IMG/VR virus record: IMGVR_UViG_3300035158_000404
Location: 1-31,721 of that record
From: a virus
Direction: 5' to 3' (one strand)
DNA length: 31,721 bases
In this document: one piece after another, positions 1,628-17,440 of the stretch
Position numbering within the stretch: the stretch's first letter is position 1
Layout of the letters: the number at the start of each line of letters is the position of its first letter
Notes under the pieces: model-generated
Told to the model about the DNA's origin: nothing
The model's input: the letters and a program-made list of their open reading frames with translations, nothing else
Databases searched by the model: none
Program-made: the position numbers and the translations under genes

Positions 1628-3233
1628 TGTTCGTTCCCAAATAGTTGCTCGCGTCCGCGATGAATGCGTACTCCCGCTCGTCGTCGGTCGCCCCGTCGTA
1701 ATCCGCCGTCACGGTCGACGGTGCGATGAATCCATAGCGCTTCGCGAAGGTCGTCTGCATTCCGGTCATTCGCATTCGCTTCTTTTGAAAGTCCGGTCTC
1801 GCGGAGGTGAGGAAAATCAGTTCATCGGACCATTCCGGTTTTCCTTTTGTGATAATACGTTCGGAGGAGATCTTGATCACGTCCGAGACTTTGAGAAATC
1901 GATTCAAGTAGATCGCGTTGCCGAAATCGAGATCAAATGTCAGTTCGGCTTGGGGGTCGCGATAACGGGCGACCCAATGGGTAGCCAGAGCAGTCGCAAA
2001 GAGCGAACCCGAGATGTCAGTCACCGCGAGATTTTCATTTTGATTGCTCCCAGGAAGCGACGCGTACGTGACGACGACGCGGATCCACTTGGTCGCTGTT
2101 CCCGAAAAAAGCTGGTACTTTCCGTCCTTGTCGACTTTGGTCACGGTTCCGGATGAATCGCCGGGCGCCGTCCATGAGAGGGTCTTGTTCGTAACATTAT
2201 AAGAAAGAAGTCCCGTGCCCGGTCCGTTGTGGCGGTTGATACAGTAAATTGAAACACCGGTCACGGCCGTTGGTTGCGCCACCGTGTAGGAGCGGATCCA
2301 TTTGCTTTCGATGATCTTTTCGACTACTTCGTCCCATTCGGACGCGCCCTGCGAGGCGGCGTCAGCGACGATCACGACCGAGTCATAATGCTCCTCTCCG
2401 TCGCTTCCACTTTCGTCGTAGTCATAGAGTACGACGCACTTATTGCACATGAGTTCGGTCATGGCTCCGGAGACTTCAAGACTCCCCCGAAGCCATCCGT
2501 CCTCGATCTGGAGAAGGCCTGTTTTCATTCCAGGGATCGGTGGGGCGAAGGTGGCACATGTGATTTTGTCACCATCCGTGAAAAGGGTATTAAGGGTCTG
2601 CCCGTCCAGCTCGTTGAGAAGGGTCTTGATTTCCACGGGCGAGGTCAGAACGCGGTCGAACGTCCATCCCTGAAACCACTTTTCCTTCTCCGTGGTAAAG
2701 GTTGTGGAATCGATCCGGGCTGCCGGCACGCCTCCGTAAGTCTCGAGGAGAGCGGTCTTGATGTCGATCGGATTCTGATTCTGGAAGGCCAGCGTCTGGG
2801 TTTTGGTATCGTTTTCCTCCGGTATTTTCGCCTGCGTCACGTAGAGGTCGTCCTCGATCTCCAGAGTCAGCACGTCGTTTTTGATCGTAAAATCCACAAT
2901 GAGGCCTGTAAAAAAGCTCCAGAAGGAGGCCGCCTCTCCGCCACGCAGCCCGACCTTAAGCGTGGCCCGACGATTCTTGATGTATTCGTGGGCGACCATA
3001 TCGCGCCATTGGGGGCGATCGATGAGTTCGATCTCGATCCTCGCGACCGACGTCTTGCCGAACTCGGCCTGAAGCTTGTGGTGCAAGGTCGGCACCGATG
3101 CCAGGACGGGGATTCCGTGGGCCCGGCTTTGACTGTAGGTAACGGTCCCACTGTCCAAGGCGAGATCGGCCACGATTTCCAGATCAGTGGAGCCCTTTCG
3201 TATCGCATTGAGCAAAAGCGGCGGGAGTGCCAT
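1602..3233 (-). CDS. Putative tail-tip / hub protein
   Basis: A 543-residue protein of mixed beta character. The N-terminal ~150 residues alternate beta strands and have the feel of siphophage tail hub proteins that sit under the tape measure. Residues ~265-410 look like an inserted beta-sandwich: a Cys pair in MCNKC, an acidic stretch DESGSDGEEHYD, and WIRVVVTYAS. Its TAATG junction with the upstream tail protein (one-base overlap) and a GGAGCTCTA site before the ATG support the start. Order tape measure, distal tail, hub, fibre is the usual siphophage order, and that is the main basis for the call. I do not recognise a catalytic motif for peptidoglycan hydrolysis. Confidence 0.55.
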   Translation of the reverse strand: MALPPLLLNAIRKGSTDLEIVADLALDSGTVTYSQSRAHGIPVLASVPTLHHKLQAEFGKTSVARIEIELIDRPQWRDMVAHEYIKNRRATLKVGLRGGEAASFWSFFTGLIVDFTIKNDVLTLEIEDDLYVTQAKIPEENDTKTQTLAFQNQNPIDIKTALLETYGGVPAARIDSTTFTTEKEKWFQGWTFDRVLTSPVEIKTLLNELDGQTLNTLFTDGDKITCATFAPPIPGMKTGLLQIEDGWLRGSLEVSGAMTELMCNKCVVLYDYDESGSDGEEHYDSVVIVADAASQGASEWDEVVEKIIESKWIRSYTVAQPTAVTGVSIYCINRHNGPGTGLLSYNVTNKTLSWTAPGDSSGTVTKVDKDGKYQLFSGTATKWIRVVVTYASLPGSNQNENLAVTDISGSLFATALATHWVARYRDPQAELTFDLDFGNAIYLNRFLKVSDVIKISSERIITKGKPEWSDELIFLTSARPDFQKKRMRMTGMQTTFAKRYGFIAPSTVTADYDGATDDEREYAFIADASNYLGTNNDPAYHIW

Positions 3234-4783
3234 TAGAGCTCCTCTCTCAATGTGATCCGGCCCCCTCGGAGGACTGGATCGTAAGCAAATAGCCAGTTCG
3301 ATTCCGAGCGGACGAGTTTGATTTTGTCCGGGGCCGAGGTTTCGTCAAAGCAGAAAAAGAATGGAAAATGATCCCGACCAACTTCCTCCCACCAGTCTCT
3401 GAGGCTCGAGTAAAAGGACGAATTGACCTTTGTGAGAACAATCTCGTAAGGCCCGCCCCGATGAAAATCTTTATGAAATCGCCTGACGCCGCCCTGGGTC
3501 TCGTTCATGACGCCGACCGCTTCCTCCGCATCCGGATCGAAGGGAAAGTCCATTTGCTTCGAGAAAGCCATCGCCGGACCAAGGAATATCTCACCAGCTT
3601 CGTAGGTGAGCCAGGATTTGGCATTGAGACGGATGCGGTATATGGGATAGTCAGCAGAGAGGGTCACGGTCTTGAGGATCGGTTCGCTTCCCTGCTGGGT
3701 CCAGCCGTCGAGACCGTTCTCTCGATCCGCGCTCGTCGTTTGGGTGCGACTGGGATTCAGATACCATCCCTGGACGATGATGGAGCTGGCGTCGCCGCTC
3801 ACCCAGACGCCGGCGTCCCAGTTGTGATCGAATACCATCAGCCTGTCGACCGAGATTTTCTCCCAGATATATAGCTCATCAACGTCAAAGCCAGTACATC
3901 CTCCCCACGTTCCCGACGATCCGCGTCCGGTGAGCCATATCCGCACGCGATCGGTCGTCTGATCCGGCACGAAGTCCGACGTCACCCACGTCTCCGACGT
4001 CGTGATCTCTGGATCCCAGTGCCCCCCATCCTCCCAATCCGCGTCGAGCAGGAGATCCGTGTCGACGTTCTTGTCCAGGAGGTAGACGCGAAGGATGTCG
4101 TTGGCAGCAGGAGGAGCGGTCAGGGCCTTTACCAGCATCACGATCCGATAGGTCTTCCCCTTCTCGAACGTCCCCGTAAGACCCTGCCTGAGAACGGCAT
4201 TGGTCGCGCCCTTAGTGTATTCGACGTATCGAACGCCACGCATACCGCTTCCAACCGAATCGACGATCTGCCAGTCGCCACTTCCCGAATACCAATCGTC
4301 GCCCGGATTACCGGCGGATTGCTGCTCGAATCCCCCGTCCGCCACGAAGTTCGGCAGTAAGGCCGGAACGTATATGACAATATCGGCTGCGTTCGCCTTC
4401 CACTTCGTCTCGCGTCTTCCGTCCACCGCGAGGCAGACCGGATAAGCCACGTCAGAATCGTCCTCGTAGAGGGTCAGCCGGATCTCGCATGCTCCCGTGT
4501 CATCGGTATCGGGCGTCTCATAGACCGTGGCCGTGTCGCTCGATGCGACCCAATCAACGATGTGGTAAACGTTTCCGGAGGCCGGAAAATAGAGGACGTA
4601 TCCGTTGAACTTATCATTCGCATCGGCGCCCAGGTCCGCGATGATGGAGAGGCCGGCCAGGACGAACGTCTTTGCCGATTGATCCGACGTGGCTCCGGTG
4701 GCCGTGGCATACTTAGTCCCGTCGCCGAGACCCGCCTCGGCACGGCGCAAAACGTTCTTGTAATAGAAGCGGCTCGTGATCAT
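3233..4783 (-). CDS. Distal-tail-like protein with an internal carbohydrate-binding-like jelly roll
   Basis: A 516-residue protein directly after the tape measure gene, where distal tail proteins lie. Residues ~145-310 look like a CBM4/9-type jelly roll: it opens with a GGFEQ turn, has a DDWYSGSGDW patch, strands such as YRIVMLVKA and RVRIWLTG, and closes with FDVDELYIWE. The C-terminal ~120 residues (RDWWEEVG, FFFCFDE) look like a separate beta domain that could contact the hub. Carbohydrate-binding inserts in tail-tip proteins are known to help first contact with surface glycans; that role here is inference. The start lies two bases after the tape measure stop, and the ribosome site is weak. 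Confidence 0.55.
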   Translation of the reverse strand: MITSRFYYKNVLRRAEAGLGDGTKYATATGATSDQSAKTFVLAGLSIIADLGADANDKFNGYVLYFPASGNVYHIVDWVASSDTATVYETPDTDDTGACEIRLTLYEDDSDVAYPVCLAVDGRRETKWKANAADIVIYVPALLPNFVADGGFEQQSAGNPGDDWYSGSGDWQIVDSVGSGMRGVRYVEYTKGATNAVLRQGLTGTFEKGKTYRIVMLVKALTAPPAANDILRVYLLDKNVDTDLLLDADWEDGGHWDPEITTSETWVTSDFVPDQTTDRVRIWLTGRGSSGTWGGCTGFDVDELYIWEKISVDRLMVFDHNWDAGVWVSGDASSIIVQGWYLNPSRTQTTSADRENGLDGWTQQGSEPILKTVTLSADYPIYRIRLNAKSWLTYEAGEIFLGPAMAFSKQMDFPFDPDAEEAVGVMNETQGGVRRFHKDFHRGGPYEIVLTKVNSSFYSSLRDWWEEVGRDHFPFFFCFDETSAPDKIKLVRSESNWLFAYDPVLRGGRITLREEL

Positions 4784-7301: not shown

Positions 7302-8378
7302 TCAGGCGAGATATGTCTGCTGGGCGTTATAAACGTAGAGGATTACCTCGTCGTTGGTGCCGTCGTTCATGACGTCGCCTGCGAGCGTGATCGTATGAAA
7401 ATCGTCTTGCACTCCCCGCTCAATCGGATCGAGTTTGGTGAGGGGAATGATCAAGATAAAACCGTAATTGAACGTGCCGGATCCGGTGATCACGACTCCC
7501 ATATCAACATTGATCTCGATCGCACAGGGATCCATATTTTCGTAATAACCGAGCTCGGTCGCCCAAGTTGTCGAGAGCGCCTTGATGGTGAGGGAGATGC
7601 GCGATTCTCTGCGGCCGTATTCCAGATCGCTTCGCACCTGGCCGCCGCCGGCGTAGTAGCCGAGATCTGCTCTGAGATTGTTATTGAAGGTCCATTCGAA
7701 CGAGAGAAGCCTGCTTGTGAGGTCGTCCTGCGTGCCGCTTGAGATATTCTCGCTGCCCTGAGCGGGTGTCGCTGCGATTGAAATATCCTCTCCGGTCTCG
7801 ATCCATATTCCGGCAATTTTGCCTGTGCGAAGCCAGGATTCCGAGATCTTGGCCGGAAATTCGGTCGAATCGCTCGAACGCGTGCCCGAGCCCAAGAGCG
7901 GACAGGATAGCGAAAACCAGCTTCCATTGTGGCGCAGGGAGAGAGATTGGGCCTTGATTCCGGTTGCCAGATACTGGCTTGCTGCCTGTTTGTAAAGCGC
8001 ACCGATCGACGGCAAGGCAGTTCCGATAGCCACGGGGACGATCTTGTGGCGATAGGCTGCGACCGTGCCTTCCTCGGCGGTTTCGATCGACCCCAGGGTC
8101 AGTGCGGCAAGCCCTGCCAGATCGTTCGGCTTGATACGGGAGATCGAAAGATCGAGGGACCAGTCTTTCTTTTCGATCTCTTTCTGAGTGGCGAATTCGC
8201 TTCCGCTCACGCCTTCCCTGTCGTCCACGACCGCGTCGGCAATCTGGGCTATTCCATCAAATCCGGAAAGTTGGCAGGCGTTGGCTGCCGCCCAGGCGGC
8301 CGGGCCGGCATCGTAGCTGGCCTCTTTATCAAAAAGAGAGAGCGCGAGCTGATCGACGTTTCTCAGTTCGAGAGTCAT
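7302..8378 (-). CDS. Major tail tube protein
   Basis: A 358-residue beta-rich protein that should polymerise into the tail tube. It starts MTLELRNVDQLALSLF and has internal stretches such as KDWSLDLSISRI and SLSLRHNGSWFSLSC typical of tube-type beta barrels. The length is about right for a siphophage tube protein with one extra domain. It is preceded by a near-perfect Shine-Dalgarno sequence (ATAGGAGGTGATTT), fitting a protein needed in hundreds of copies. Upstream lies a heptamer repeat tract; downstream come the chaperone pair and tape measure. No contractile sheath gene is present, so this tube probably stands alone in a flexible, non-contractile tail. Confidence 0.75.
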   Translation of the reverse strand: MTLELRNVDQLALSLFDKEASYDAGPAAWAAANACQLSGFDGIAQIADAVVDDREGVSGSEFATQKEIEKKDWSLDLSISRIKPNDLAGLAALTLGSIETAEEGTVAAYRHKIVPVAIGTALPSIGALYKQAASQYLATGIKAQSLSLRHNGSWFSLSCPLLGSGTRSSDSTEFPAKISESWLRTGKIAGIWIETGEDISIAATPAQGSENISSGTQDDLTSRLLSFEWTFNNNLRADLGYYAGGGQVRSDLEYGRRESRISLTIKALSTTWATELGYYENMDPCAIEINVDMGVVITGSGTFNYGFILIIPLTKLDPIERGVQDDFHTITLAGDVMNDGTNDEVILYVYNAQQTYLA

Positions 8379-8393
8379 AAATCACCTCCTATA

Positions 8394-8428
8394 GCAAGGC
8401 GTAGGGCATAAGGCGCAAGGCGATGAGT
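8394..8428. repeat. Degenerate heptamer tract at a gene junction
   Basis: Reads GCAAGGC, GTAGGGC, ATAAGGC, GCAAGGC, then GATGAGT in plus-strand sequence, four to five units of seven bases. It fills the gap between the 75-residue connector gene and the tail tube gene, just upstream of the tube ribosome site. The unit differs from the CATTGCT-type heptamers seen elsewhere in the window, but the period is the same. Confidence 0.7.
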
Positions 8429-8451
8429 CGAATGTGCGAGCCAAAAAGCGC

Positions 8452-8679
8452 CTATTGTGCGATTTCGATTTTTTCATGTAAGTTCCGGCAGAAGTCCTCC
8501 TCGAGGATCTCTATCTCGTCACCCGATTCGAGGCGGATAAAGCCCGCGATATTGAGATCCTTATCGACCTTAGTAATTTCGTGAGCCTGGATTATCCGCA
8601 CGCGGATCCGGGCGGGCGCCCGATCTTTTGATTTGGCTTTTTCTCCGAGATCGATCACGTTGCTTTTCTTTCCTTTCAT
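8452..8679 (-). CDS. Small hypothetical connector-region protein, 75 aa
   Basis: A small basic-to-acidic protein (starts MKGKKSNVIDLGEK, ends LHEKIEIAQ) whose central part, residues ~25-65, alternates strands (RIRVRIIQAHEI, GFIRLESGDEIEIL) and could be a small beta barrel. I start it at 8679, where GAGAGGATTCCG precedes the ATG; a longer reading to 8751 would run through a nonamer repeat tract and has a badly spaced ribosome site. It lies between the DUF1834 connector and the tail tube gene, a position often held by small neck or tail-terminator proteins. No function can be shown. Confidence 0.6.
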   Translation of the reverse strand: MKGKKSNVIDLGEKAKSKDRAPARIRVRIIQAHEITKVDKDLNIAGFIRLESGDEIEILEEDFCRNLHEKIEIAQ

Positions 8680-8700
8680 CGGAATCCTCTCTTTATCCTC

Positions 8701-8750
8701 TTGAACGAGTGCAGCGATCGAACGGCTCGAACGACTTGATCGTTTGAACA
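8701..8750. repeat. Degenerate nonamer tract at a gene junction
   Basis: Reads CGATCGAAC, GGCTCGAAC, GACTTGATC, GTTTGAACA (8715-8750), units of nine bases built on TCGAAC/TTGAAC, with a looser unit TTGAACGAG at 8701. It fills the gap between the DUF1834-like gene and the next gene. It belongs to the same family as the tract at 12507-12542 (TTCGAGTCG-type units). Confidence 0.65.
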
Positions 8751-8754
8751 TTCC

Positions 8755-9192
8755 TCACGACTCCTCGCACCAAGTCCTGAAGCGGATCTGATAGACGGCT
8801 TCTGTCTCTGTGCCTTCAATGGCATCCTCGTCGATCGGTTGAAGCTCGGCGATGGAAAGACCCAGAGTCTGGCCTGAAAGCGCGTCTCGCGCATCCTCGA
8901 GAAGATCATAGACTCCTTTTTCAGTCCCCTGGCCGTGTCGGGCCGCCTCCTCATTTCGAAAGCTTCTCGCCATGACGACCACAGCAAAGATCATCTCTCG
9001 GTCCTGGGTTCCACCCGTACGGTTATGATATGTGCCGCCCACATAGCAAACATAGGCAGCCGGGAAGAGCAGCGTCTTATCCGAGATTTCCGTCTTGAGA
9101 TACTCAGCCAGAGGCTCGCAGGTGCGCAGATAGCTCATCTGCGATTCAAGTCTCGTGATCATGGCATCTTCGATCTGTGTAATCGTATACAC
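8755..9192 (-). CDS. DUF1834 / Mu gp37-like head-tail or tail completion protein
   Basis: A 145-residue protein that resembles the Mu gp37 (DUF1834) family: N-terminal ITQIEDAMITRLES, a central FPAAYVCYVGGTY strand region with the usual test-of-quality FAVVVMARSFRNEEAARHG, and a helix GVYDLLEDARDALSG. In Mu this gene directly follows gp36 (DUF1320); here the two are parted by a three-gene block of secreted proteins. The start is GTG with AAAGGGATAACC upstream. It probably caps the tail tube or joins tube and head, inferred from family position. Confidence in the family is good, in the exact role moderate. Confidence 0.7.
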   Translation of the reverse strand: MYTITQIEDAMITRLESQMSYLRTCEPLAEYLKTEISDKTLLFPAAYVCYVGGTYHNRTGGTQDREMIFAVVVMARSFRNEEAARHGQGTEKGVYDLLEDARDALSGQTLGLSIAELQPIDEDAIEGTETEAVYQIRFRTWCEES

Positions 9193-9202
9193 GGTTATCC
9201 CT

Positions 9203-11062
9203 TTATGGCTGGAGCGACGGCAAAATCATCCCGTCGTCTAATATCACCATCACTCTTCGGCTTTGATAGGCTCCGATGTCTGGAGGATCTATGATTTCTC
9301 GCCCTCGAAAATCCTCTGTCAAGCCGACATCGGTGCCGGCATTGATGCAGGGAGAATTGGCCCGAAGGCGATAGTCCTTTGTGGTAGGAGAAATGAACAG
9401 CGGATCTACCTGTTTGCTTGTTTCATGCAAAGCAGGCAAATCTTCTGCCCCCGCTCTTCCCCAATCCCTATCACCAGTAATCGAATCATACCAATCACAA
9501 TACTGCTCGTCTGGGTCAATAAGACGGTCAGGATCGGCAATCTGTTTGTAAAACTCATAGCTTACATTGTCATAAGCTATACTGTTTCGGATGTGGAGAA
9601 GACCATACACACAAAAACCATAGGTCCCATTATTGTGAGCGACACAGTTATTGACATACATATCTTTGGTATTGTCGGGAACTCCACCGGTGACATGATG
9701 ATTAAGCCCCTTCTGAATGTTATTCACAAAAAGGCAATAATTCGTATACGTCCCATCTCCAAAGTTCTGGATACCATGATGGGCATTATACTCACAGCGT
9801 CCATAGTAGATTTTATGCCCTAAATCCTCTGCGGCAGGGACATAGATTCCGTATTTAGCAAATCGAAAGATTCCACCATAGATATGATAATAATTCTCAT
9901 CAAGCCGTAAACCAGCCTCCCTTTGATGGGCTTCCATATTCCAGCCGACCGTATCGGGGTCTCCGGTGTCATCCCGTAGATAGATTGTGTTATACCCCAA
10001 GGTGTCATTGTCTCCCCATTTCCATTCATGGTCCCCCAAGGCACCTAATGTAGAGCCATTTGTTAAAGCCGTAAAATAATCCGAAGCAGACTCGTACCAG
10101 AGCCCTAACGGTTCAGATAAGCTAGGATCGCCACCGGCAGCAAGTTCAAGGTGATATTCATTAGGCGATTTGCGGACATTGAACGCATCAAAGTATACAA
10201 CCCCATTATTTGTAGAAGACTTAATACGAACCTGAACAGTCTCAGGAGAGTCTCCAGTTGAGGCCATATAGAAGTGTATTTCTTTTTTTGTGAAATCCGT
10301 ATCCGAAGTTAAAACCGCAAGATCATCAATCCAGTTTTCCGATGTTGACCACGTTGTTAGGTCGTCTTGCAGATAGTAAAACGATCCACTATATGCAAAA
10401 CGCAACCATACTTCCCCTGTTCCGGTCCCATCCGATTTGCCATAGAAGGTAACAGCATAACCTTGATCCAAATTCATTGTGGCGGATTGGTAAGCCAACG
10501 ATTCCACACCAGCGCCACGATTTATTTTGATAGAATAGGTTCCGGCATGGCAGGTTGTAGAGGCATCGAGATAGCCCCCTGCCCCTCCAGCACTTTCACC
10601 CCAATTGTCAAAATCGTCGGTTGTCTCGTCGTCTGCCGTGCCGGTGAAGCTCTCGAAGCCTGGATTGCTGATAAGCTCCGATCCGTCTGCTGTCCTTGTC
10701 CACTTGTAACCGGAAGACAGATTGACACTGCCATGAACCTTGGCTTGGTGCGAAGGCAACCTTGATCTAGTCGTACCCGTGCCAGTAGCGTCAAAGTAGA
10801 TCGTTATTTCGGTCCCACTCCCCCCCGCTACGGATGTATCGACGAGCTCGCGATATGTTTGCCCGCCTTCTACATATATCGTATCCCCGGCTGAAACGGC
10901 GGCAACAGCAGTCGAAATCGTTGTCGCCGCCTTGGCCCACGTGTCATAGGGGCTTGTATTGGAACCCGATGCAGAGACATAAAGTGTCGCTCCCCATCCA
11001 GGCACGGCCAGGGCCAGTGTCAAGAGACATGAAAGCAATAAGATTTTCAGCTTACCATTCAC
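9203..11062 (-). CDS. Secreted right-handed parallel beta-helix protein with inserted jelly-roll domain
   Basis: A 619-residue exported protein. A GTG start with GGGGGAGGACAG upstream gives a clean signal peptide (KLKILLLSCLLTLALAVPGWGA, two charged residues then a hydrophobic core and an Ala cleavage site); an in-frame ATG nine codons earlier has no such site. After cleavage comes TLYVSASGSN and AGDTIYVEGGQTY, the usual opening of a right-handed parallel beta helix. Residues ~120-285 form a CBM4/9-like jelly roll (NPGFESF...VVYFDAFNV). The helix resumes with NCVAHNNGTYGF and IRNSIAYDN coils and closes with DFRGREI...DIGAYQ, the common end of such proteins. It is visibly more AT-rich than its neighbours. 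Folds of this type bind or cleave polysaccharide; no catalytic site is recognised. Confidence 0.7.
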   Translation of the reverse strand: MNGKLKILLLSCLLTLALAVPGWGATLYVSASGSNTSPYDTWAKAATTISTAVAAVSAGDTIYVEGGQTYRELVDTSVAGGSGTEITIYFDATGTGTTRSRLPSHQAKVHGSVNLSSGYKWTRTADGSELISNPGFESFTGTADDETTDDFDNWGESAGGAGGYLDASTTCHAGTYSIKINRGAGVESLAYQSATMNLDQGYAVTFYGKSDGTGTGEVWLRFAYSGSFYYLQDDLTTWSTSENWIDDLAVLTSDTDFTKKEIHFYMASTGDSPETVQVRIKSSTNNGVVYFDAFNVRKSPNEYHLELAAGGDPSLSEPLGLWYESASDYFTALTNGSTLGALGDHEWKWGDNDTLGYNTIYLRDDTGDPDTVGWNMEAHQREAGLRLDENYYHIYGGIFRFAKYGIYVPAAEDLGHKIYYGRCEYNAHHGIQNFGDGTYTNYCLFVNNIQKGLNHHVTGGVPDNTKDMYVNNCVAHNNGTYGFCVYGLLHIRNSIAYDNVSYEFYKQIADPDRLIDPDEQYCDWYDSITGDRDWGRAGAEDLPALHETSKQVDPLFISPTTKDYRLRANSPCINAGTDVGLTEDFRGREIIDPPDIGAYQSRRVMVILDDGMILPSLQP

Positions 11063-11543
11063 AATCTGTCCTCCCCCAATCCTCGCCAAATAATAGCCAA
11101 TCTTGCATATCGCAAGATCCGTCTCGATTCAGATCACACCAGCAGTCAGGACTATCTTGGACGAATCTGCTTGGAAGACTTTCGTTGCCGGACGTGTCAT
11201 AAGCTGTCACAAAGAATATCTTGCCGCGATCTTCGGGTGCGCCGAGATCTGCAAGGATCTTTTCTGTCACGTTGCCCACGTCCACCATTGTCGTATCTTG
11301 GCCTGGACTCCCCCAATACACCTTGTAGCCTGCTAGGTCCTCCTCCGTGTTCGCGTTCCATTTGAGGCTCTTTGGGCTGTTCGATTCTATCCTCAGCCCA
11401 AGGGGTTGTGCCGGGTATGTAGTCCAGCTTAATGCCGGCATCTGTAGCGCTAAGAGGGAAAGCCATAGCAAAGAAAGCCCGAGCAACGTCCCAGCCAGCA
11501 GGAGGTTCGTTTTTGAATTTTTTCTTGAATCGTGCTGCTTCAC
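11052..11543 (-). CDS. Exported Fn3-like protein with C-terminal dockerin-like EF-hand
   Basis: A 163-residue protein starting at GTG. A basic N-terminus is followed by a hydrophobic segment (TNLLLAGTLLGLSLLWLSLL) that is a signal peptide or membrane anchor. Residues ~55-125 are fibronectin-III-like (LKWNANTEEDLAGYKVYW and FFVTAYDTSGNESLPS). The C-terminus has DLNRDGSCDMQDW, a calcium-binding loop of the type found in dockerins and related EF-hands, but only one copy, framed by cysteines. Such modules normally sit on extracellular bacterial enzymes, not in virions. Its end overlaps the start of the beta-helix gene by 11 bases, so the two are probably co-translated. The nearest Shine-Dalgarno (ATAGGAGC) is rather far upstream. 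Confidence 0.65.
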   Translation of the reverse strand: MKQHDSRKNSKTNLLLAGTLLGLSLLWLSLLALQMPALSWTTYPAQPLGLRIESNSPKSLKWNANTEEDLAGYKVYWGSPGQDTTMVDVGNVTEKILADLGAPEDRGKIFFVTAYDTSGNESLPSRFVQDSPDCWCDLNRDGSCDMQDWLLFGEDWGRTDCEW

Positions 11544-11559
11544 GTCTTCTATTCAGCTC

Positions 11560-12018
11560 CTATTGCCTTACAGTAAGGAAAATCGTCCCGCTTTTGGCAT
11601 TCCCCGCGTTTTGCACTTTTGGCGTGAGCGTTGCCTGAAATAGATAGACAAAACCGCCCTCGGCTGTAAAAGGTGTCTTTAGATTGGTGCTCGCACTCGC
11701 GCTGTTGGACAGATCCGCCCCCACTCCTTGAAGCACGTCAACGCCGTTTTCATCATTGATCTCGATATCGTACAGGTCGGAAACGCCCGATCCGGGAACG
11801 AATCGCACCATCAGAATCATGCCGCTGACGCGAGTGATTGCACCTTCGCCAGAGACGTTGCCGTCCGTATCGCTTGTCCATTCCCATTTATGGATCTTTG
11901 TCGAAGCTCCGTACGCCGGGGCGGGCGTCGGAGTGCAACTTCCGGCGGCACCAACGAGTGAAGCCGATCCGAGAATGATCAAAGCAAGTCCAATCACTGC
12001 GAAAGCTTTTCGATTCAT
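11560..12018 (-). CDS. Exported small beta-sandwich protein in the phage structural operon
   Basis: A 152-residue protein. Residues 1-25 are a signal peptide (MNRKAFAVIGLALIILGSASLVGAAG). The next residues include a Cys that could carry lipid, though the lipobox is poor. The mature part alternates beta strands: KIHKWEWTSDTDGNVSGEG, VRFVPGSGVSDLYDIEINDENGVDVL, then a final NAGNAKSGTIFLTVRQ. From memory, proteins with this mature pattern (a GSGVSDLYD turn followed by DxxGxDVL and NAGNAKSG) occur without signal peptides among phage structural genes. A secreted form would be unusual. A TGGAGGAGCC site precedes the ATG. It is the first gene of the three-gene exported cassette. Confidence 0.65.
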   Translation of the reverse strand: MNRKAFAVIGLALIILGSASLVGAAGSCTPTPAPAYGASTKIHKWEWTSDTDGNVSGEGAITRVSGMILMVRFVPGSGVSDLYDIEINDENGVDVLQGVGADLSNSASASTNLKTPFTAEGGFVYLFQATLTPKVQNAGNAKSGTIFLTVRQ

Positions 12019-12039
12019 TGGCTCCTCCAGTCTATTTTC

Positions 12040-12489
12040 TTAATAGTTATCCAGACTTCCCGATTCGCCGGTCGACTTCTTTCCGATCGTGAAGGTCCGG
12101 TCCTCATCCGTCCGGCTCGTCTTGACCTGCTGCTCGCCGCCCGAAGGCTCGGGGTCGACGCCCAGGGTGGCCACGCCCTTGGCCATCTTCTCCAGAAGCC
12201 CCACGGCCGCCTTGTAGCGCTCCTGACGCATCTCGTCGACGATCCCCCGGCGACTGTAGAGGTTCCAGATGGCGATCGCGACCGAGAGGGTCTTGATCAC
12301 CGTGGGAATGGGCGTGAGGGGAACCGTGTAGCGGGCCGACAGATACGAGTCGATCTCGGCATCCGCCTCGTCGATTGCTGCCGAGACGCGATCTTCATTG
12401 ATGACGCCGAGACCCTCGTCGTCGGTAAGCTGGATCAGGACCTCCTCGTCAATCCGATCTTTGATATCAGAGAGCGTACAATAGGCCAT
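12040..12489 (-). CDS. DUF1320 / Mu gp36-like head-tail connector
   Basis: A 149-residue protein of the DUF1320 family. It begins MAYCTLSDIKDRIDEEVLIQLTDD, continues with a helical VSAAIDEADAEIDSYLSARYTVPL core and a WNLYSRR motif, and ends in a polar tail. All of these are typical of Mu gp36 and its siphophage relatives. It should form part of the ring that joins capsid portal to tail. A CAAGGAGAGATC site lies directly before the ATG. The gap upstream is filled by a nonamer repeat tract. Directly downstream lies the secreted cassette instead of the expected DUF1834 gene. Confidence 0.85.
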   Translation of the reverse strand: MAYCTLSDIKDRIDEEVLIQLTDDEGLGVINEDRVSAAIDEADAEIDSYLSARYTVPLTPIPTVIKTLSVAIAIWNLYSRRGIVDEMRQERYKAAVGLLEKMAKGVATLGVDPEPSGGEQQVKTSRTDEDRTFTIGKKSTGESGSLDNY

Positions 12490-12506
12490 GATCTCTCCTT
12501 GAGATG

Positions 12507-12542
12507 TTCGAGTCGTTCAAATCGTTTGAATTGTTCGAATCG
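12507..12542. repeat. Degenerate nonamer tract at a gene junction
   Basis: Four units of nine bases: TTCGAGTCG, TTCAAATCG, TTTGAATTG, TTCGAATCG. The tract fills almost the whole gap between the end of the 78-residue gene and the ribosome site of the DUF1320 gene. Confidence 0.75.
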
Positions 12543-12779
12543 TCAAGGCTTTTTCCGGGCCTTTTTTGGCTTTTTCGGGGCGGCCTTAGATTCGGGCCGT
12601 GCCCCTTCGGCCTTGACATTTCGCTCAGGTTCGTCCACGGCCTCAAAATGCTGCTTCGTGCTCGTCGCAAGGAGCTCGCGGGCAAAGGAGTCCGGATAGT
12701 TTCGGATTTCATCCCGATAGTGAGGACCGTACGGGACCACATAGACCCGGTCCATCGGCCCGAGATATCTGATCTTCAT
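12543..12779 (-). CDS. Small head-module protein with Lys/Pro/Ala-rich tail
   Basis: A 78-residue protein. The N-terminal half (KIRYLGPMDRVYVVPYGPHYRDEI) looks like a small beta fold; the C-terminal third (ARPESKAAPKKPKKARKKP) is strongly basic and disordered and could touch DNA or the acidic capsid lining. Genes of this size are common between major capsid and DUF1320 genes in siphophages and may be minor capsid or connector parts. GAAGGGAGG upstream supports the ATG. No family is recognised. Confidence 0.65.
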   Translation of the reverse strand: MKIRYLGPMDRVYVVPYGPHYRDEIRNYPDSFARELLATSTKQHFEAVDEPERNVKAEGARPESKAAPKKPKKARKKP

Positions 12780-12827
12780 GATCAGCCTCCCTTCAGACGC
12801 GGTCTGCGGTCTTTATCTGCGCCCGGC

Positions 12828-13805
12828 TTACGTTACGATCGTGTCGTACCACAAAAAACCAAGGTCGGCGCCGGTGATGAGAATGTCCGTCTCCTCAGCC
12901 ACCTCATACACGTCCTGGTGCTCGGCCGCCTCTCGCCAGGTAGTGGTTCGCCTGGGAAGGCCGTTCTCATAGGCTGCCCTTGCCTGGAGGCCCGCAGAAG
13001 GGACCTTCAGACCTGGCCGGGGCGGACGGTAAAAAAGAAACACCGATCCTTTTGTGGCATTTTTCTCCCAGACGTTTACCGCCGTAAAGTCCGAGCCATC
13101 GGCCTTTTCTGCCGTGCTCGAGTAAATGGCATCCCCGACGAGGACCTCCTCGAGCTCGAAGATCGCGGCGATAAGCGGCGCCGTGACGATTCCGCGTTCG
13201 GTGTATTTGATCCGGTCGAGCACGGTCGATTCCTGCTTGATCTCCCTGAGCGTGTTGGCCGAAAGGATCAGGACGTTTGGCCGAATGCCGGTATTGCCGC
13301 GGATCGTTTCAATCCGGGTCTCGACATCGGTGATGAACGTATTCCCGCTTCCGGCTGCCCAACCTCCCTCGGCATCCTCGCCGGCCACGCCGCTCCAGGT
13401 GCCCGCAAGAATGAGCGAGGCGATGCGGCGCTCCTTTTTGAGATCGATTCGATCCGCACAGTACTCCAGGGCATCCTCGTCCGGACGGAGCGGCGGCGCT
13501 CCCGGATGCTGGACGGCCCGGCGGTCCTCGTCGGTCACTTCCTTGGCAATCGCATATTCCTTGGGCGCCACGTCGATGTAATCGACCGGGTAGCCGCCGC
13601 GCGCGGCCCGGCTGCCGGGCCCCCGGATCTGGGCCTCGTCGCGAAACCAGGCTCCCTTGAGATAACGGGCAATTTTGGCCTTCGGGGGAACGTTGTCGAC
13701 GATCGGGAAAGTCCGATCGGCGATGTAACTTTTGTTGCGGTAAGCGATCGACACGTTTGCGAGCGGACCCGCAACGACAAGCTCTCTCACATTTGGCTGT
13801 GGCAT
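12828..13805 (-). CDS. Major capsid protein (HK97-fold, presumed)
   Basis: A 325-residue protein that should form the head shell. The order protease-scaffold, decoration, capsid, connector fixes its place. Sequence features common in this capsid group are present: the N-terminal arm with IADRTFPIVDNVPPKAKIARYLKG, the YIDVAPKEYAIAKEVTDEDRR segment, the helix RIDLKKERRIASLIL and the APLIAAIFELEEVLVGDAIY stretch, close to sequences seen in many siphophage capsids next to DUF2190 genes. The strong AAAGGAGAGAAACCC site suits high expression. There is no N-terminal scaffold-like extension; scaffold is supplied by the protease gene. Confidence 0.85.
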   Translation of the reverse strand: MPQPNVRELVVAGPLANVSIAYRNKSYIADRTFPIVDNVPPKAKIARYLKGAWFRDEAQIRGPGSRAARGGYPVDYIDVAPKEYAIAKEVTDEDRRAVQHPGAPPLRPDEDALEYCADRIDLKKERRIASLILAGTWSGVAGEDAEGGWAAGSGNTFITDVETRIETIRGNTGIRPNVLILSANTLREIKQESTVLDRIKYTERGIVTAPLIAAIFELEEVLVGDAIYSSTAEKADGSDFTAVNVWEKNATKGSVFLFYRPPRPGLKVPSAGLQARAAYENGLPRRTTTWREAAEHQDVYEVAEETDILITGADLGFLWYDTIVT

Positions 13806-13865
13806 GGGTTTCTCTCCTTTTCTCTCAGGCGATTAGTGGTTCGCCTTCGTGATTCATGACGGTTT

Positions 13866-14261
13866 TTATGAGGCAGCGTTGACCTGATGGACCGCACCGG
13901 AAAGCAAGATCTCGCCCAGCTCGTCCTCGTCTCCACCTTTGAGACACCGCCCGATTGCCAGATCGAGCGCCGCATCAGCGTCGAGACCCTTTCCTGCATC
14001 GGCAGCATCGACGTACTCGAGCTTGATCCATTCGTTTTCGGCCACGGTTTCGCCGAAAACGATCTTGCTTATACCGATCAGGCGAACGACGGTGGCCTGC
14101 CCTGCCTCCGGAGCGTTCTGCAGAATGCCCAGAGGAATATCGGTCGCTGCATCGGGGCGCTGCACCTTGCCGCCTGAGAGGACCATGATCCGATACTGAT
14201 CGTTCGAAAGATCCTCACCGGCCTCAAACGATACGTCCAGAACTCTATTTTCGGTTGCCAT
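13866..14261 (-). CDS. DUF2190-type capsid decoration/cement protein
   Basis: A 131-residue beta-rich protein: RVLDVSFEAGEDLSNDQYRIMVLSGG, then PLGILQNAPEAGQATVVRLIGISKIVFGE. This is the usual pattern of DUF2190 proteins, which trimerise on the capsid surface and lock the shell. It lies between protease-scaffold and major capsid genes, a standard place. AAAGGAGGAAATAGAAC precedes the ATG. The C-terminal half has an Asp/Ala-rich loop (DAADAGKGLDADAALD) and a single Cys. Family assignment is good, though made by eye. Confidence 0.75.
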   Translation of the reverse strand: MATENRVLDVSFEAGEDLSNDQYRIMVLSGGKVQRPDAATDIPLGILQNAPEAGQATVVRLIGISKIVFGETVAENEWIKLEYVDAADAGKGLDADAALDLAIGRCLKGGDEDELGEILLSGAVHQVNAAS

Positions 14262-15851: not shown

Positions 15852-16177
15852 CGCTCTGCTCCTTCGGGTCCAAGGGCCTCAATCACGACCACCGTGGTGA
15901 TCCGGACCCGCCGACCGTCGATCGAAATGATTCGCTTGTCCGTCTCTTCCTTAATGACGGCCCAGAGATTTCGGAGATCGGCCTCGGGAACGCCGTGCTC
16001 TCGCATGGAGGCCTCGATACGGCGACGCTGGCCGGTATCGTCCGTCCCCCGCTGGCCATAATTCCCGCCCAAAACCCGGATCACCGTGGCCTTGGGAATC
16101 TCGGTCTCTCTGCAAAACCGGCTGACCGATCCAAAGTGTTTGACGATTCGGTCCCGGGCGATAGGATACTTGTCCAT
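15833..16177 (-). CDS. HTH DNA-binding protein in the late head operon
   Basis: A 114-residue protein. Residues ~8-40 form a helix-turn-helix (IVKHFGSVSRFCRETEIP, KATVIRVLGGN), followed by MREHGVPEADL, a pattern shared in outline with two other HTH proteins of this phage (WLKDHGCPEKHL at 31.4 kb and WLKGHGCPSEYF at 26.0 kb). The C-terminal ~40 residues are beta-like (RRVRITTVVVIEALG) and could dimerise. It overlaps the protease start by 19 bases, so the two are coupled. The gene starts 44 bases after a GGTTAA-N7-TTAACC palindrome that recurs before the lysis-like genes. It could therefore regulate late transcription or itself. The ribosome site is weak. Confidence 0.65.
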   Translation of the reverse strand: MDKYPIARDRIVKHFGSVSRFCRETEIPKATVIRVLGGNYGQRGTDDTGQRRRIEASMREHGVPEADLRNLWAVIKEETDKRIISIDGRRVRITTVVVIEALGPEGAERCHTKA

Positions 16178-16376
16178 CTCGGATATCTTTCAAAAATGCC
16201 TCTCTGACCTCGACAAACCCCGGTTAAAAAATTGTTAACCGGCCTTCCGAAGGGTATTGGCGCCATCCTATCGAGATCGTCGATCCTGAGGCCTCCTGGC
16301 GCGTCGGTCGTGACTCGTGTTCGTGACTCGTTGCTCATTGCTCAGTCCTCGGTCCTCATCCCTCAATCAGCATTCC
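16178..16376 (-). promoter_or_regulatory. Intergenic control region ahead of HTH/protease/capsid genes
   Basis: About 200 bases without a credible gene, one of only two large gaps in the late region. It holds the palindrome at 16222-16240 and most of a heptamer repeat tract at 16309-16384. I find no convincing sigma-70 -10 element at a fixed distance from the palindrome. That would fit an activator-dependent or host-specific promoter, or an attenuating hairpin instead of a promoter. The location matches Mu promoter PI. Confidence 0.5.
16222..16240. promoter_or_regulatory. Palindromic operator candidate, copy 2 (GGTTAA-N7-TTAACC)
   Basis: Perfect six-base arms GGTTAA and TTAACC separated by seven bases; here the dyad extends to eight bases (CCGGTTAA...TTAACCGG). 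Minus-strand reading is GGTTAACAATTTTTTAACC, identical at 15 of 19 positions to the other copy at 23455-23473 (GGTTAACATTCCATTAACC). A transcript hairpin is also possible, but the stem is AT-rich and the shared spacing and loop start (CA) favour a protein site. Confidence 0.65.
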
Positions 16377-16384
16377 TCATCCCT
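16309..16384. repeat. Degenerate heptamer tract
   Basis: About eleven units in plus-strand sequence: CGTGACT, CGTGTT (one base short), CGTGACT, CGTTGCT, CATTGCT, CAGTCCT, CGGTCCT, CATCCCT, CAATCAG, CATTCCT, CATCCCT. The tract runs over the stop codon of the gpG gene at 16377. Confidence 0.8.
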
Positions 16385-16835
16385 TGACAAAATCCATGAG
16401 CGTCTCACGGATCTCCTTCCGATCCTCGGTCTGAAGCATCATGAAAGGCCTGGCCGGAATGGTGACCTTGCGGCCCCGGCCGGCCTCGCCGCCAAAATGG
16501 TGGATGGCGGCATAGATCTTTTTGGCCGTAAAGACGAGCCGGCTTCTTCCCGCCTGGTAATAAATCGATCCCAGAAGACCGCCGCCCACACCCCGGCGGA
16601 TCAGGATCTGCCCCGGCCATTTGCCTTCGCGCTCGCGCTGCCGGATGGTTGCCGGTCGCAGAGGCTTCCATTTTCGAGGCCGGCCTTCCTCTTCGAAGTT
16701 TCTCTGGATGGAGGTGAGGCCGATCTCGCCGATGGTCTGAAGCGCGGGCTTGAGATTATGCAGCCGGCGATCCATGCCCCCGAGCCGCCTTCTGATTCCG
16801 AAATCCTTGCTCGAGATCTTGATTTCAATCGGCAT
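16377..16835 (-). CDS. Mu gpG-like virion morphogenesis protein
   Basis: A 152-residue protein of the phage virion morphogenesis family (Mu gpG, Pfam Phage_tail_S type). Typical parts are IGEIGLTSIQRNFEEEGRPRKWKPL, then ATIRQREREGKWPGQILIRRG with LLGSIYYQ, and the late IHHFGGEAGRGRKVTIPARPFM motif that nearly all members share. It is thought to act at the head-tail junction or in tail completion. The start codon lies directly after a heptamer repeat tract and has no clear Shine-Dalgarno sequence. This is odd for this operon, where most genes have good sites. It follows a winged-helix gene instead of F directly. Confidence 0.85.
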   Translation of the reverse strand: MPIEIKISSKDFGIRRRLGGMDRRLHNLKPALQTIGEIGLTSIQRNFEEEGRPRKWKPLRPATIRQREREGKWPGQILIRRGVGGGLLGSIYYQAGRSRLVFTAKKIYAAIHHFGGEAGRGRKVTIPARPFMMLQTEDRKEIRETLMDFVKG

Positions 16836-16846
16836 TATTCGCGGCT

Positions 16847-16921
16847 CGTGTTCGTGATTCGTATTCGTAACTCATTACTCATTGTTCAGTGCTCAGTTCT
16901 GGTTGCTCAGCACTCAGTCCC
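16847..16921. repeat. Degenerate heptamer tract
   Basis: About eleven units: CGTGTT, CGTGATT, CGTATT, CGTAACT, CATTACT, CATTGTT, CAGTGCT, CAGTTCT, GGTTGCT, CAGCACT, CAGTCCC. It fills the gap between the winged-helix gene and the gpG gene and reaches into the last codons of the former. Confidence 0.8.
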
Positions 16922-17440
16922 CATCCGGGCCTCTGCCATGTGCGGGATGCCTCTATCCCGAATGCATGGCCAGGCGGACTTCCACGGCTCTGGAGCATTC
17001 GACGCAAAAATTGAATTATGGGTCATCCTCCAGAGGATCGCGTGGAGCAATTGCCGTCTTCTTTTGATGATGTTTATCTGAACCGGGTCGGTCTTGACGT
17101 CTTGTCTCCGAATGATTTTTGCCAGAATCCAGAGCTCCTGATGATAGGCATTTATGGCTTTCTCGGTCCTGAAAACTTCCGGATATTTTTCTTTCAGGCC
17201 GGAAGCTTCCTCTTTCCGATTTTCCACAATGGGAGTTTTCTCTTTTCGACCTTTCGCAATGCGATACCGGTAGGGCTTTCCCTCGCGCGCGAGCCGATTC
17301 CTGGTATACAGATAAATCAATGTGCCCGATATCCGCCCATCGATTGGAGAATATCCCAGAGCTTTCGCAATCTCTCTCTGTGTCAGATCTGGGTGAATCG
17401 CGATGTAATCAAGCAGAGTCTCTGCCAAATAGCTTCGCAT
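16907..17440 (-). CDS. Winged-helix protein between portal-F and gpG
   Basis: A 177-residue protein. Residues ~5-65 read as a winged helix: ETLLDYIAIHPDLTQREIAKALGYSP, ISGTLIYLYTRNRLARE, YRYRIAKG. A basic linker and a helical part follow (YPEVFRTEKAINAYHQELWILAKIIRRQ). The last ~15 residues run into a heptamer repeat tract, so the present C-terminus may have been extended or replaced. A ribosome site AAAGGATAAAAATCG that uses the end of the portal gene supports the ATG. A DNA-binding gene inside the head operon is unusual; it could control late transcription or be a passenger. Function unknown. Confidence 0.65.
   Translation of the reverse strand: MRSYLAETLLDYIAIHPDLTQREIAKALGYSPIDGRISGTLIYLYTRNRLAREGKPYRYRIAKGRKEKTPIVENRKEEASGLKEKYPEVFRTEKAINAYHQELWILAKIIRRQDVKTDPVQINIIKRRRQLLHAILWRMTHNSIFASNAPEPWKSAWPCIRDRGIPHMAEARMGTEC

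Follow-up and report, generated by a model that had tools for sequence, protein, structure and literature searches.

Three genes for proteins with predicted export signals part the gp36-like and gp37-like genes of an environmental transposable phage. They occupy a swap site: the interval from the major capsid protein (MCP) gene over gp36 to gp37 exchanges its contents among relatives. We tentatively read the three genes as a late-expressed, exported module of virion-type adhesin or decoration parts that would be re-addressed to the envelope, a reading to which we give slightly less than an even chance.

The insert and its flanks

The window, by which we mean the whole stretch of DNA analyzed here, is a 31.7-kb phage contig with MuA-like and Mu portal/F genes, and its matches to PF09299, PF06074, PF04233, PF07030 and PF08873 identify it as a Mu-type transposable phage. 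Between gp36 and gp37 it carries three tightly packed minus-strand open reading frames (11560-12018, 11052-11543 and 9203-11089), referred to as sp1, sp2 and sp3 in the following.

13866-14261: head-type gene (phrog_673)
16377..16835, minus strand: gpG-like (Phage_tail_S) gene (profile match, E 5.3e-39)
12828..13805, minus strand: major capsid protein gene (phrog_1005, E 1.5e-63)
12040..12489, minus strand: gp36-like (DUF1320) connector gene, upstream flank (PF07030, E 1.7e-36; phrog_195 head-tail adaptor, E 2.9e-43)
11560..12018, minus strand: sp1, 152-aa predicted-export small beta-sandwich with cement-protein-like fold (ORF, SD, model)
11947..12018, minus strand: sp1 predicted signal peptide, residues 1-24, cleavage LVGA^AGS (rule-based)
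11052..11543, minus strand: sp2, 163 aa, N-terminal signal or anchor, Fn3 and single EF-hand (half dockerin) (ORF; homology to host Fn3 exoproteins)
11169..11414, minus strand: sp2 Fn3-like domain, approximate (51% identity to an Fn3 exoprotein in genome G006; PF00041 in homologs)
11073..11135, minus strand: sp2 EF-hand / half-dockerin motif DLNRDGSCDMQDWLLFGEDWG (homology to Desulfobacterota exoprotein tails)
9203..11062, minus strand: sp3, 619-aa predicted-export beta-helix-type protein (GTG start; SD GGAGGA at 11069-11074)
10988..11062, minus strand: sp3 predicted signal peptide, residues 1-25, cleavage GWGA^TLY (rule-based)
10733..10987, minus strand: sp3 N-terminal cap (..GSNTSPYDTWAKAA..), common to signal-less phage proteins (alignment)
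9260..9385, minus strand: sp3 choice-of-anchor Q domain (NF041518, E 7e-7, 29.4 bits against a cut-off of 25)
8755..9192, minus strand: gp37-like (DUF1834) gene, downstream flank (PF08873, E 7.6e-21; PF23840 tail terminator, E 3e-9)

The first-pass annotation had described three signal-bearing genes at this place, and we confirm both the reading frames and the predicted signals. The signals were called with our own rule-based predictor; that of sp2, an extended hydrophobic segment in which the cleavage site is hard to place, may instead be an uncleaved anchor. Neighboring genes, gp36 included, either overlap or are separated by 16-21 bases, a spacing typical of co-translation with late genes, and strong ribosome-binding sites precede sp1 (GGAGGAG at 12022-12028) and sp3. 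The most likely start of sp3 is the GTG at 11062, which stands behind GGAGGA and overlaps the sp2 stop; the TTG at 11089 is merely the mechanical start of the reading frame.

The AT-richness attributed to the third gene is borne out, as sp3 has the lowest values (GC 0.48, GC3 0.46), and it extends to sp1 and sp2 (GC3 0.55-0.56); nearly all other genes of the window have a GC3 of 0.61-0.80, and one small gene has 0.57. The edges of the insert were compared for direct repeats and for a target-site duplication, and the two junctions share no match of at least 8 bases. The window has neither Rfam nor tRNA matches.

The encoded proteins

The structural model of sp1 (mean pLDDT 77.6) is a beta-sandwich, in agreement with the initial description. 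Its fold neighbors include the cement proteins of phages Pam1, KHP30 and GP4 (101-119 aligned residues, identity below 15%), and the cement-like fold assigned to the model rests on Z-scores of 6.3-7.1, which common beta-sandwiches also reach; the fold alone is common. The signal, MNRKAFAVIGLALIILGSASLVGA^AGS, is credible by rule-based prediction. Homologs were found in two relatives, L008 and L026, and the nearest of them, in L026, is signal-less and begins with MAGSC, at the mature N-terminus of sp1. We considered that sp1 might be a lipoprotein (..AAGSC) and hold this to be unlikely, as the cysteine is absent in L008 and present without a signal in L026. A profile of sp1 retrieved no further viral locus and had no match in 297 genomes of the phylum of genome G001.

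Of the three proteins, only sp2, with its Fn3 and half-dockerin parts, looks like a host exoprotein. The first-pass assignment of an Fn3 domain and an EF-hand is supported through homologs: PF00041 has no direct match in sp2, and it matches one homolog with 29.9 bits (cut-off 25) and a second below the cut-off. Motifs of the DLNRDGSCDMQDWLLFGEDWG type form multi-copy C-terminal tails in Desulfobacterota exoproteins, two of which match Dockerin_1. A type I dockerin consists of two duplicated calcium-binding F-hand repeats, whereas sp2 has one repeat only; its two-repeat relatives match PF00404 and sp2 does not. The tail of sp2 contains four cysteines.

The signal of sp3 (..KILLLSCLLTLALAVPGWGA^TLY) is likewise credible by rule-based prediction, and signal-less homologs begin at sp3 residues 25-27. 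Of 26 viral loci with the N-terminal cap, 23 lack a signal; the loci were retrieved with a PYDTWAK pattern, so that the conservation of this motif among them is partly by construction. Several of these loci adjoin genes for scaffold, major head protein, portal or head protease. Given this, and given the signal-less sp1 homolog in L026, sp1 and the sp3 cap belong to phage families and are virion-type parts.

Of the beta-helix and jelly roll first proposed for sp3, the beta-helix is supported only through homologs and the anchor-Q domain. Pfam's PF13229 does not match sp3 directly and is present in two homologs, L152 (E 9e-13, aligned over sp3 residues 412-601) and L003, the latter a polysaccharide deacetylase fused to an sp3-type cap. 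The jelly roll is unconfirmed; residues 120-300, searched for a carbohydrate-binding jelly roll, have no Pfam match up to E 10 and do not resemble the weak CBM_4_9 region in the tail protein at 3233-4783. The analysis of sp3 revealed no catalytic site, and a structure model from nine partial homologs (pLDDT 31) was set aside. PDB sequence searches with all three proteins gave no meaningful match; tblastn against 50,697 phage records found no relatives of sp1 or sp3 and, for sp2, only weak Fn3 matches, to minor tail proteins.

L008 and L026 have the genes for sp1-like and beta-helix-type proteins side by side, and in the window only sp2 parts them. Within each pair the signal status is matched, both proteins being signaled in the window and in L008 and both signal-less in L026. 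These are three independent cases, although the beta-helix gene of L026 looks truncated.

The interval between capsid and gp37 genes in relatives

With the major capsid protein as an anchor, we fetched 89 relatives, of which 65 are comparable at the gp36-gp37 site. None of the 65 carries the trio. Conservation in all relatives, which together with presence in virions would have marked the three as structural genes, is thus not what the junctions show; with gp36 and gp37 adjacent in 35 relatives, the trio is an insertion in a phage operon relative to related phages, as a moron is. That gp36 and gp37 are normally neighbors, as first assumed, holds for these 35, but 22 others have a gpG-like gene alone between them, and the remaining 8 have other inserts. 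The two genes are therefore not always neighbors. The closest relative, L026, is among those with a gpG-like gene, there of family PF05069. We also rejected the cassette as a replacement of this gene, because the window retains its own gpG-like gene.

Other signal-bearing genes, encoding beta-helices, fiber-like proteins and an M14 peptidase, occur in the MCP-gp36-gp37 interval of 10 of the 65 relatives. Under a strict rule, 19 of 87 genes in the interval bear signals versus 38 of 840 elsewhere (Fisher P 1.6e-7), and none of 182 core genes does; a looser rule gives 23 of 111 in the interval (P 7e-6). On the capsid tree the signal-bearing state is scattered, with 10 changes against a shuffled mean of 10.3, and well-supported branches require at least 6 of them; this points to repeated acquisition or loss of signal-bearing genes. 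The occupants include an O-antigen-ligase-like gene in L028 and L048 (Wzy_C, below Pfam's cut-off), an M14 carboxypeptidase in L114, beta-helices in L042 and L066, and, in L112 and L102, a diversity-generating retroelement (DGR) with a target that is of a tail-protein family and lacks a signal.

Possible functions of the cassette

The cassette had been interpreted as secreted cargo directed at polysaccharide. The predicted signals agree with this, and action on surface glycans or the envelope fits the sequence-based gene company in related phages, namely the deacetylase fusion, the O-antigen-ligase-like genes, the carboxypeptidase and the beta-helices; the cassette probably acts on surface polysaccharide. 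The notion that the cargo is foreign suits sp2, which is of host-exoprotein type, but not sp1 and the sp3 cap with their signal-less phage homologs.

In the reading that we favor, sp1-sp3 would share a transcript with the structural genes, leave the cytoplasm through the Sec pathway during the final stage of infection, and bind or cleave polysaccharide of the cell surface or the matrix. The sp3 beta-helix with its anchor-Q domain would be the polysaccharide-binding or -cutting part, and sp2 with Fn3 and half-dockerin the bridging part, while sp1 would pair with the beta-helix protein or serve as its base. As a result, progeny would be neither held back by nor re-adsorbed to the host's own glycans. 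An objection to this reading is that in a diderm host a protein that is soluble in the periplasm would get outside only at lysis unless it is secreted further.

Alternatively, the proteins may be adhesins or decorations of the virion head and end up on the particle: folded outside the cytoplasm, they would attach to the heads once the cell has lysed, sp1 being the cement-like base and sp3 the glycan-binding spike. We consider this unlikely. The cement-type proteins among the best fold neighbors of sp1 and the signal-less homologs near head genes speak for it, as do the four cysteines of sp2 and paired cysteines in several signal-bearing relatives, which would suit extracytoplasmic folding. The DGR targets in L112 and L102 mark the interval as a place for ligand-binding virion proteins, but they are themselves signal-less, as phage DGR targets generally are (PMC6199706). 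Moreover, a Sec signal diverts a protein from head assembly in the cytoplasm, and we know of no precedent for post-lysis docking of an exported phage protein.

Somewhat less probable again is lysogenic conversion, in which the exported proteins would act on the surface of the lysogen, altering its glycans or blocking superinfecting phages, as SieA and gtrABC do in P22-like phages. The insert is variable among relatives and dispensable to them, it is AT-richer and contains a host-type exoprotein part, O-antigen-ligase-like genes occupy the same site in L028 and L048, and variable morons at one fixed place in a structural operon are known (PMC2629481). However, no sigma-70-like promoter or terminator exceeded shuffled sequences on the coding strand near the cassette start, a scan that would miss non-sigma-70 promoters. 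For the lysogen-surface role considered in the first-pass annotation, expression in the lysogen is therefore without support, and late co-transcription, with which the tight spacing up to gp36 agrees, is more likely. That the genes are functionless passengers from host exoproteins is very improbable: AT-richness and the host-type Fn3/half-dockerin and anchor-Q parts would fit, but all three frames are open behind good ribosome-binding sites, sp1 belongs to a phage family, and a random insert does not explain why signal-bearing genes recur in this interval in at least 10 relatives.

Returning to the exported module of virion-type parts, two of its proteins have close relatives without export signals among the virion genes of other phages, which suggests that certain phages produce surface proteins of virion type in a version destined for the host cell's exterior. 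If true, this would add a category of late phage products intermediate between structural proteins and cargo, adhesin parts for the envelope rather than the particle. The interval in the Mu-head group would then be a place to seek host-recognition or surface-modifying genes in uncultured phages; it is worth searching because its occupants vary from phage to phage, an exported beta-helix or fiber-like protein in one being exchanged for an O-antigen-ligase-like gene or a DGR target in another. A broader proposal, which we make with considerable doubt, is that transposable phages of anaerobic uncultured bacteria keep this capsid-connector swap site and that their decoration or adhesin proteins switch between a particle-bound, signal-less and an exported, signal-bearing form. 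If so, one recognition module could be displayed either on the virion or on the envelope of the dying host. The presence or absence of signals on homologous proteins makes the question of particle versus envelope directly testable.

Comparison with known systems

An Ig-like fold has been described for the capsid cement proteins of Pam1, KHP30 and Ralstonia phage GP4 (gp1) (PMC9698820), and the sp1 model resembles them in size and in its small Ig-like beta-sandwich. Unlike them, sp1 has a predicted export signal; it shares less than 15% identity with them, and a head-type gene (phrog_673) is already present elsewhere in the window. Ig-like cement proteins are synthesized in the cytoplasm and attach to the outside of the capsid.

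With choice-of-anchor Q beta-helix exoproteins, sp3 shares the signal, a YVSASGSN-type N-cap and a C-terminal anchor-Q domain that scores above the NF041518 cut-off. It differs from them in its place in a phage structural operon, in a variant cap that is mostly shared with signal-less phage proteins, and in having no recognizable sorting signal after the anchor-Q domain. Like the DGR targets of L112 and L102, the cassette lies in the MCP-gp36-gp37 interval; unlike them, it has no accompanying DGR, as the window contains neither a reverse transcriptase nor a template repeat and a repeat-pair scan of it was empty.

The closest known counterparts of the cassette are morons in late operons, among them HK97 gp15. 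Morons usually are expressed independently, from their own promoter and terminator, and have no function in morphogenesis or lysis. In the 'ant moron' of P22-like phages, variable genes, some of which act on the envelope or exclude phages, stand at a fixed place in the structural operon (PMC2629481). The cassette shares this arrangement of variable genes at a fixed structural-operon place with the P22-like and HK97 gp15 morons. It differs from them in lacking a detected sigma-70-type promoter or terminator, in its location between the capsid and gp37 genes, and in encoding predicted-export, adhesin-type proteins that derive in part from virion-type families.

Results

The window encodes a MuA-type transposase, an AAA protein, a Mu-type major capsid protein (MCP, 12828-13805), a Mu portal fused or joined to a Mu F-like domain, and homologues of gp36 and gp37, the latter followed by a tail-tube-like protein and a probable tape measure. 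All these genes, found by ORF and profile searches, lie on the minus strand; Rfam and tRNA scans of the 31,721-base window returned no family and no tRNA. The capsid gene has its nearest cellular relatives in assemblies of Desulfobacteraceae, Desulfobulbus, Brocadia and Nitrospirae. At 3233-4783 (minus strand), a probable tail protein gives a weak carbohydrate-binding match (CBM_4_9, E 0.0013, under the cut-off).

As the first-pass annotation had stated, three genes part gp36 from gp37, lying exactly between them:

12040-12489, minus strand: gp36 (DUF1320, PF07030)
11560-12018, minus strand: sp1, small beta-sandwich
11052-11543, minus strand: sp2, Fn3 and EF-hand
9203-11062, minus strand: sp3, beta-helix-type
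8755-9192, minus strand: gp37 (DUF1834, PF08873)

sp1 starts 21 bases past gp36 (SD GGAGGAG), sp2 16 bases past sp1, and sp3 at a GTG (11062, SD GGAGGA) with an 11-base overlap with the end of sp2; gp37 begins 10 bases past sp3. Since no sigma-70-like promoter and no terminator for the cassette scored above shuffles, it is probably co-transcribed with the late genes. Our own rule-based predictor assigns canonical signal peptides to sp1 and sp3, and to sp2 a long hydrophobic N-terminal segment of uncertain cleavage. The AT-richness previously noticed for the third gene is real: GC3 is 0.46 in sp3, against 0.57-0.80 in the other window genes, with sp1 and sp2 mildly AT-rich (0.55-0.56).

Capsid-anchored scans yielded 89 relatives, 65 distinct ones of which also carry gp36 and gp37. 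The expectation that these two are normally neighbours holds for 35 of the 65; in 22, a gpG-like gene (PF05069) is the sole gene between them, and eight have other inserts. The sp1-sp2-sp3 trio occurs in none of the 65. A gpG-like gene is still present in the window, at 16377-16835, and the cassette is therefore no replacement of that gene.

Inspection of all genes lying between MCP and gp37 revealed repeated, differing inserts across the relatives: this interval is a swap site. Under a strict rule, signal-bearing genes are enriched in it (19/87, versus 38/840 elsewhere on the same contigs; Fisher P 1.6e-7) and make up 0/182 of the core genes; a looser rule gives 23/111 for the interval. Because some signal-scored genes encode membrane proteins (the Wzy_C-like genes of the comparison loci L028/L048, and L093), ten rather than eleven loci were counted as truly signal-bearing. 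These are scattered on the capsid tree, with 10 changes, at least six of them forced by well-supported branches.

The inserts include beta-helix proteins (L042, twice, and L066), a signal-bearing M14 carboxypeptidase adjoining a LamG protein (L114), and fibre-like signal-bearing proteins with weak profile support (L109, L042, L083, L028), which we judge to be fibre-like by repeats (SGTNTGDQ and NRTISTTAPLAGGGDLS, for example) of a kind familiar from tail fibres. Although from different phages, the L114 carboxypeptidase (12481-14016) and the signal-bearing L066 beta-helix protein (11806-14055) have a common C-terminal domain of ~160 residues (E 1e-11), with one further match among 247 genomes (G117); it is perhaps an anchoring or docking domain. 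Between MCP and gp36, L028 (11974-13080) and L048 (11883-12953) encode Wzy_C O-antigen-ligase-like membrane proteins (E 1e-5 to 2e-7, slightly under Pfam's cut-off), each adjoining a signal-bearing fibre-like protein, which makes serotype conversion from within the late operon possible. In the L112 prophage, three more signal-bearing genes (76, 90 and 282 aa) lie immediately past gp37 (15971-17315), so that export-signal genes are not restricted there to the interval.

Two relatives carry complete diversity-generating retroelements in the interval, between capsid and connector genes:

L112, 13353-13671: diversity-generating retroelement
L102, 12956-13271: diversity-generating retroelement

VR and TR lie 196 (L102) and 199 (L112) bases apart and mismatch at template adenines only across an 80-base window. 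Both elements have a reverse transcriptase (the L112 one, which was tested, matches phrog_1423, E 3e-116) and a 101-aa accessory-like gene. Their targets belong to the tail-protein family phrog_11262 (E 1e-51 to 1e-59) and are without signals, as is general for phage DGR targets (PMC6199706).

Three independent members of the sp1 family were found, and no more. L026, which by capsid is nearest to the window of all the relatives, has a homologue with 42% identity; this begins MAGSC, precisely where mature sp1 is predicted to start, and thus has no signal. The L008 homologue has one. Structure prediction gives sp1 a beta-sandwich fold (pLDDT 77.6). Capsid chains of Pam1, KHP30 and GP4 are among its nearest solved folds (Z 7.1, 6.8 and 6.3), a likeness to cement proteins that we treat only as a lead, because Z below 8 may also reflect a common arrangement. 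One paper (PMC9698820) describes the Ig-like cement proteins of all three and identifies chain J of the GP4 entry as such a protein; the matched Pam1 and KHP30 chains are presumably cement proteins too.

The best matches of the sp2 Fn3 domain are Fn3 exoproteins encoded in bacterial genomes, for example G006 (51% over 63 residues). The tail of sp2 is a single repeat of a dockerin-like module, of which some Desulfobacterota genomes have as many as ten copies, and lacks the second repeat that defines type I dockerins. Dockerin-like tails with one or two repeats and DFGRTDC-type end motifs occur in many copies per genome in G051, G149 and G307 (loci L128-L150). Among these proteins, L130 additionally contains a cohesin-like domain, a hint that Desulfobacterota may build cohesin-dockerin assemblies.

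In sp3, the signal is followed by an N-terminal cap (..GSNTSPYDTWAKAA..) present in 26 viral loci. These were retrieved with the pattern PYDTWAK, which is thus conserved by construction; the position of the start codon was not fixed by that search. In 23 of the 26, the protein begins at the cap, without a signal; three entries, two distinct sequences (L003, L008), have a signal ahead of it, as in the window. Signal-less carriers neighbour scaffold and major head protein (L023), scaffold (L015), head maturation protease (L012) or portal (L006), and the signal-bearing carrier of L008 lies between terminase and portal. Past the cap, sp3 resembles bacterial beta-helix exoproteins: a Desulfobacterota homologue with PF13229 aligns to residues 412-601, and an anchor-Q domain scores 29.4 bits (cut-off 25). 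Beta-helix adhesins are common. A single L003 protein (7959-10016), encoded just ahead of an apparent lysis cassette, combines signal, phage-type cap, beta-helix, polysaccharide deacetylase and anchor-Q domain.

An sp1-like gene precedes a beta-helix-type gene in three settings: in the window, both signal-bearing with sp2 in between; in L008, both signal-bearing and adjacent, between terminase and portal; and in L026, both signal-less and adjacent, past the tail-tube-like gene, the beta-helix gene being apparently truncated. The pairing and its matched signal status suggest, from three cases, a joint function in one compartment.

Discussion

The cassette occupies an exchangeable site, and its sp1 and sp3 components have signal-less, virion-type relatives. 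The first-pass annotation had read it as inserted secreted cargo that probably acts on extracellular polysaccharide. Export agrees with the predicted signals and the polysaccharide theme is likely, but foreign origin fits poorly with those relatives; a description that suits the cassette better is one host-type protein plus adhesin or decoration parts of phage type that have been redirected to the envelope. Its products would be exported by Sec, might bind or cleave polysaccharide, and could thereby benefit the phage at release. The main rival is that they are assembled onto the particle after lysis; lysogenic conversion comes next. In the literature searched, mostly open-access papers, we found no description of fibre or decoration proteins that carry signals and are encoded at a swap site among head genes. 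The arrangement itself has a parallel in P22-like phages, whose variable morons sit at one fixed place in the structural operon (PMC2629481), much as the cassette does here.
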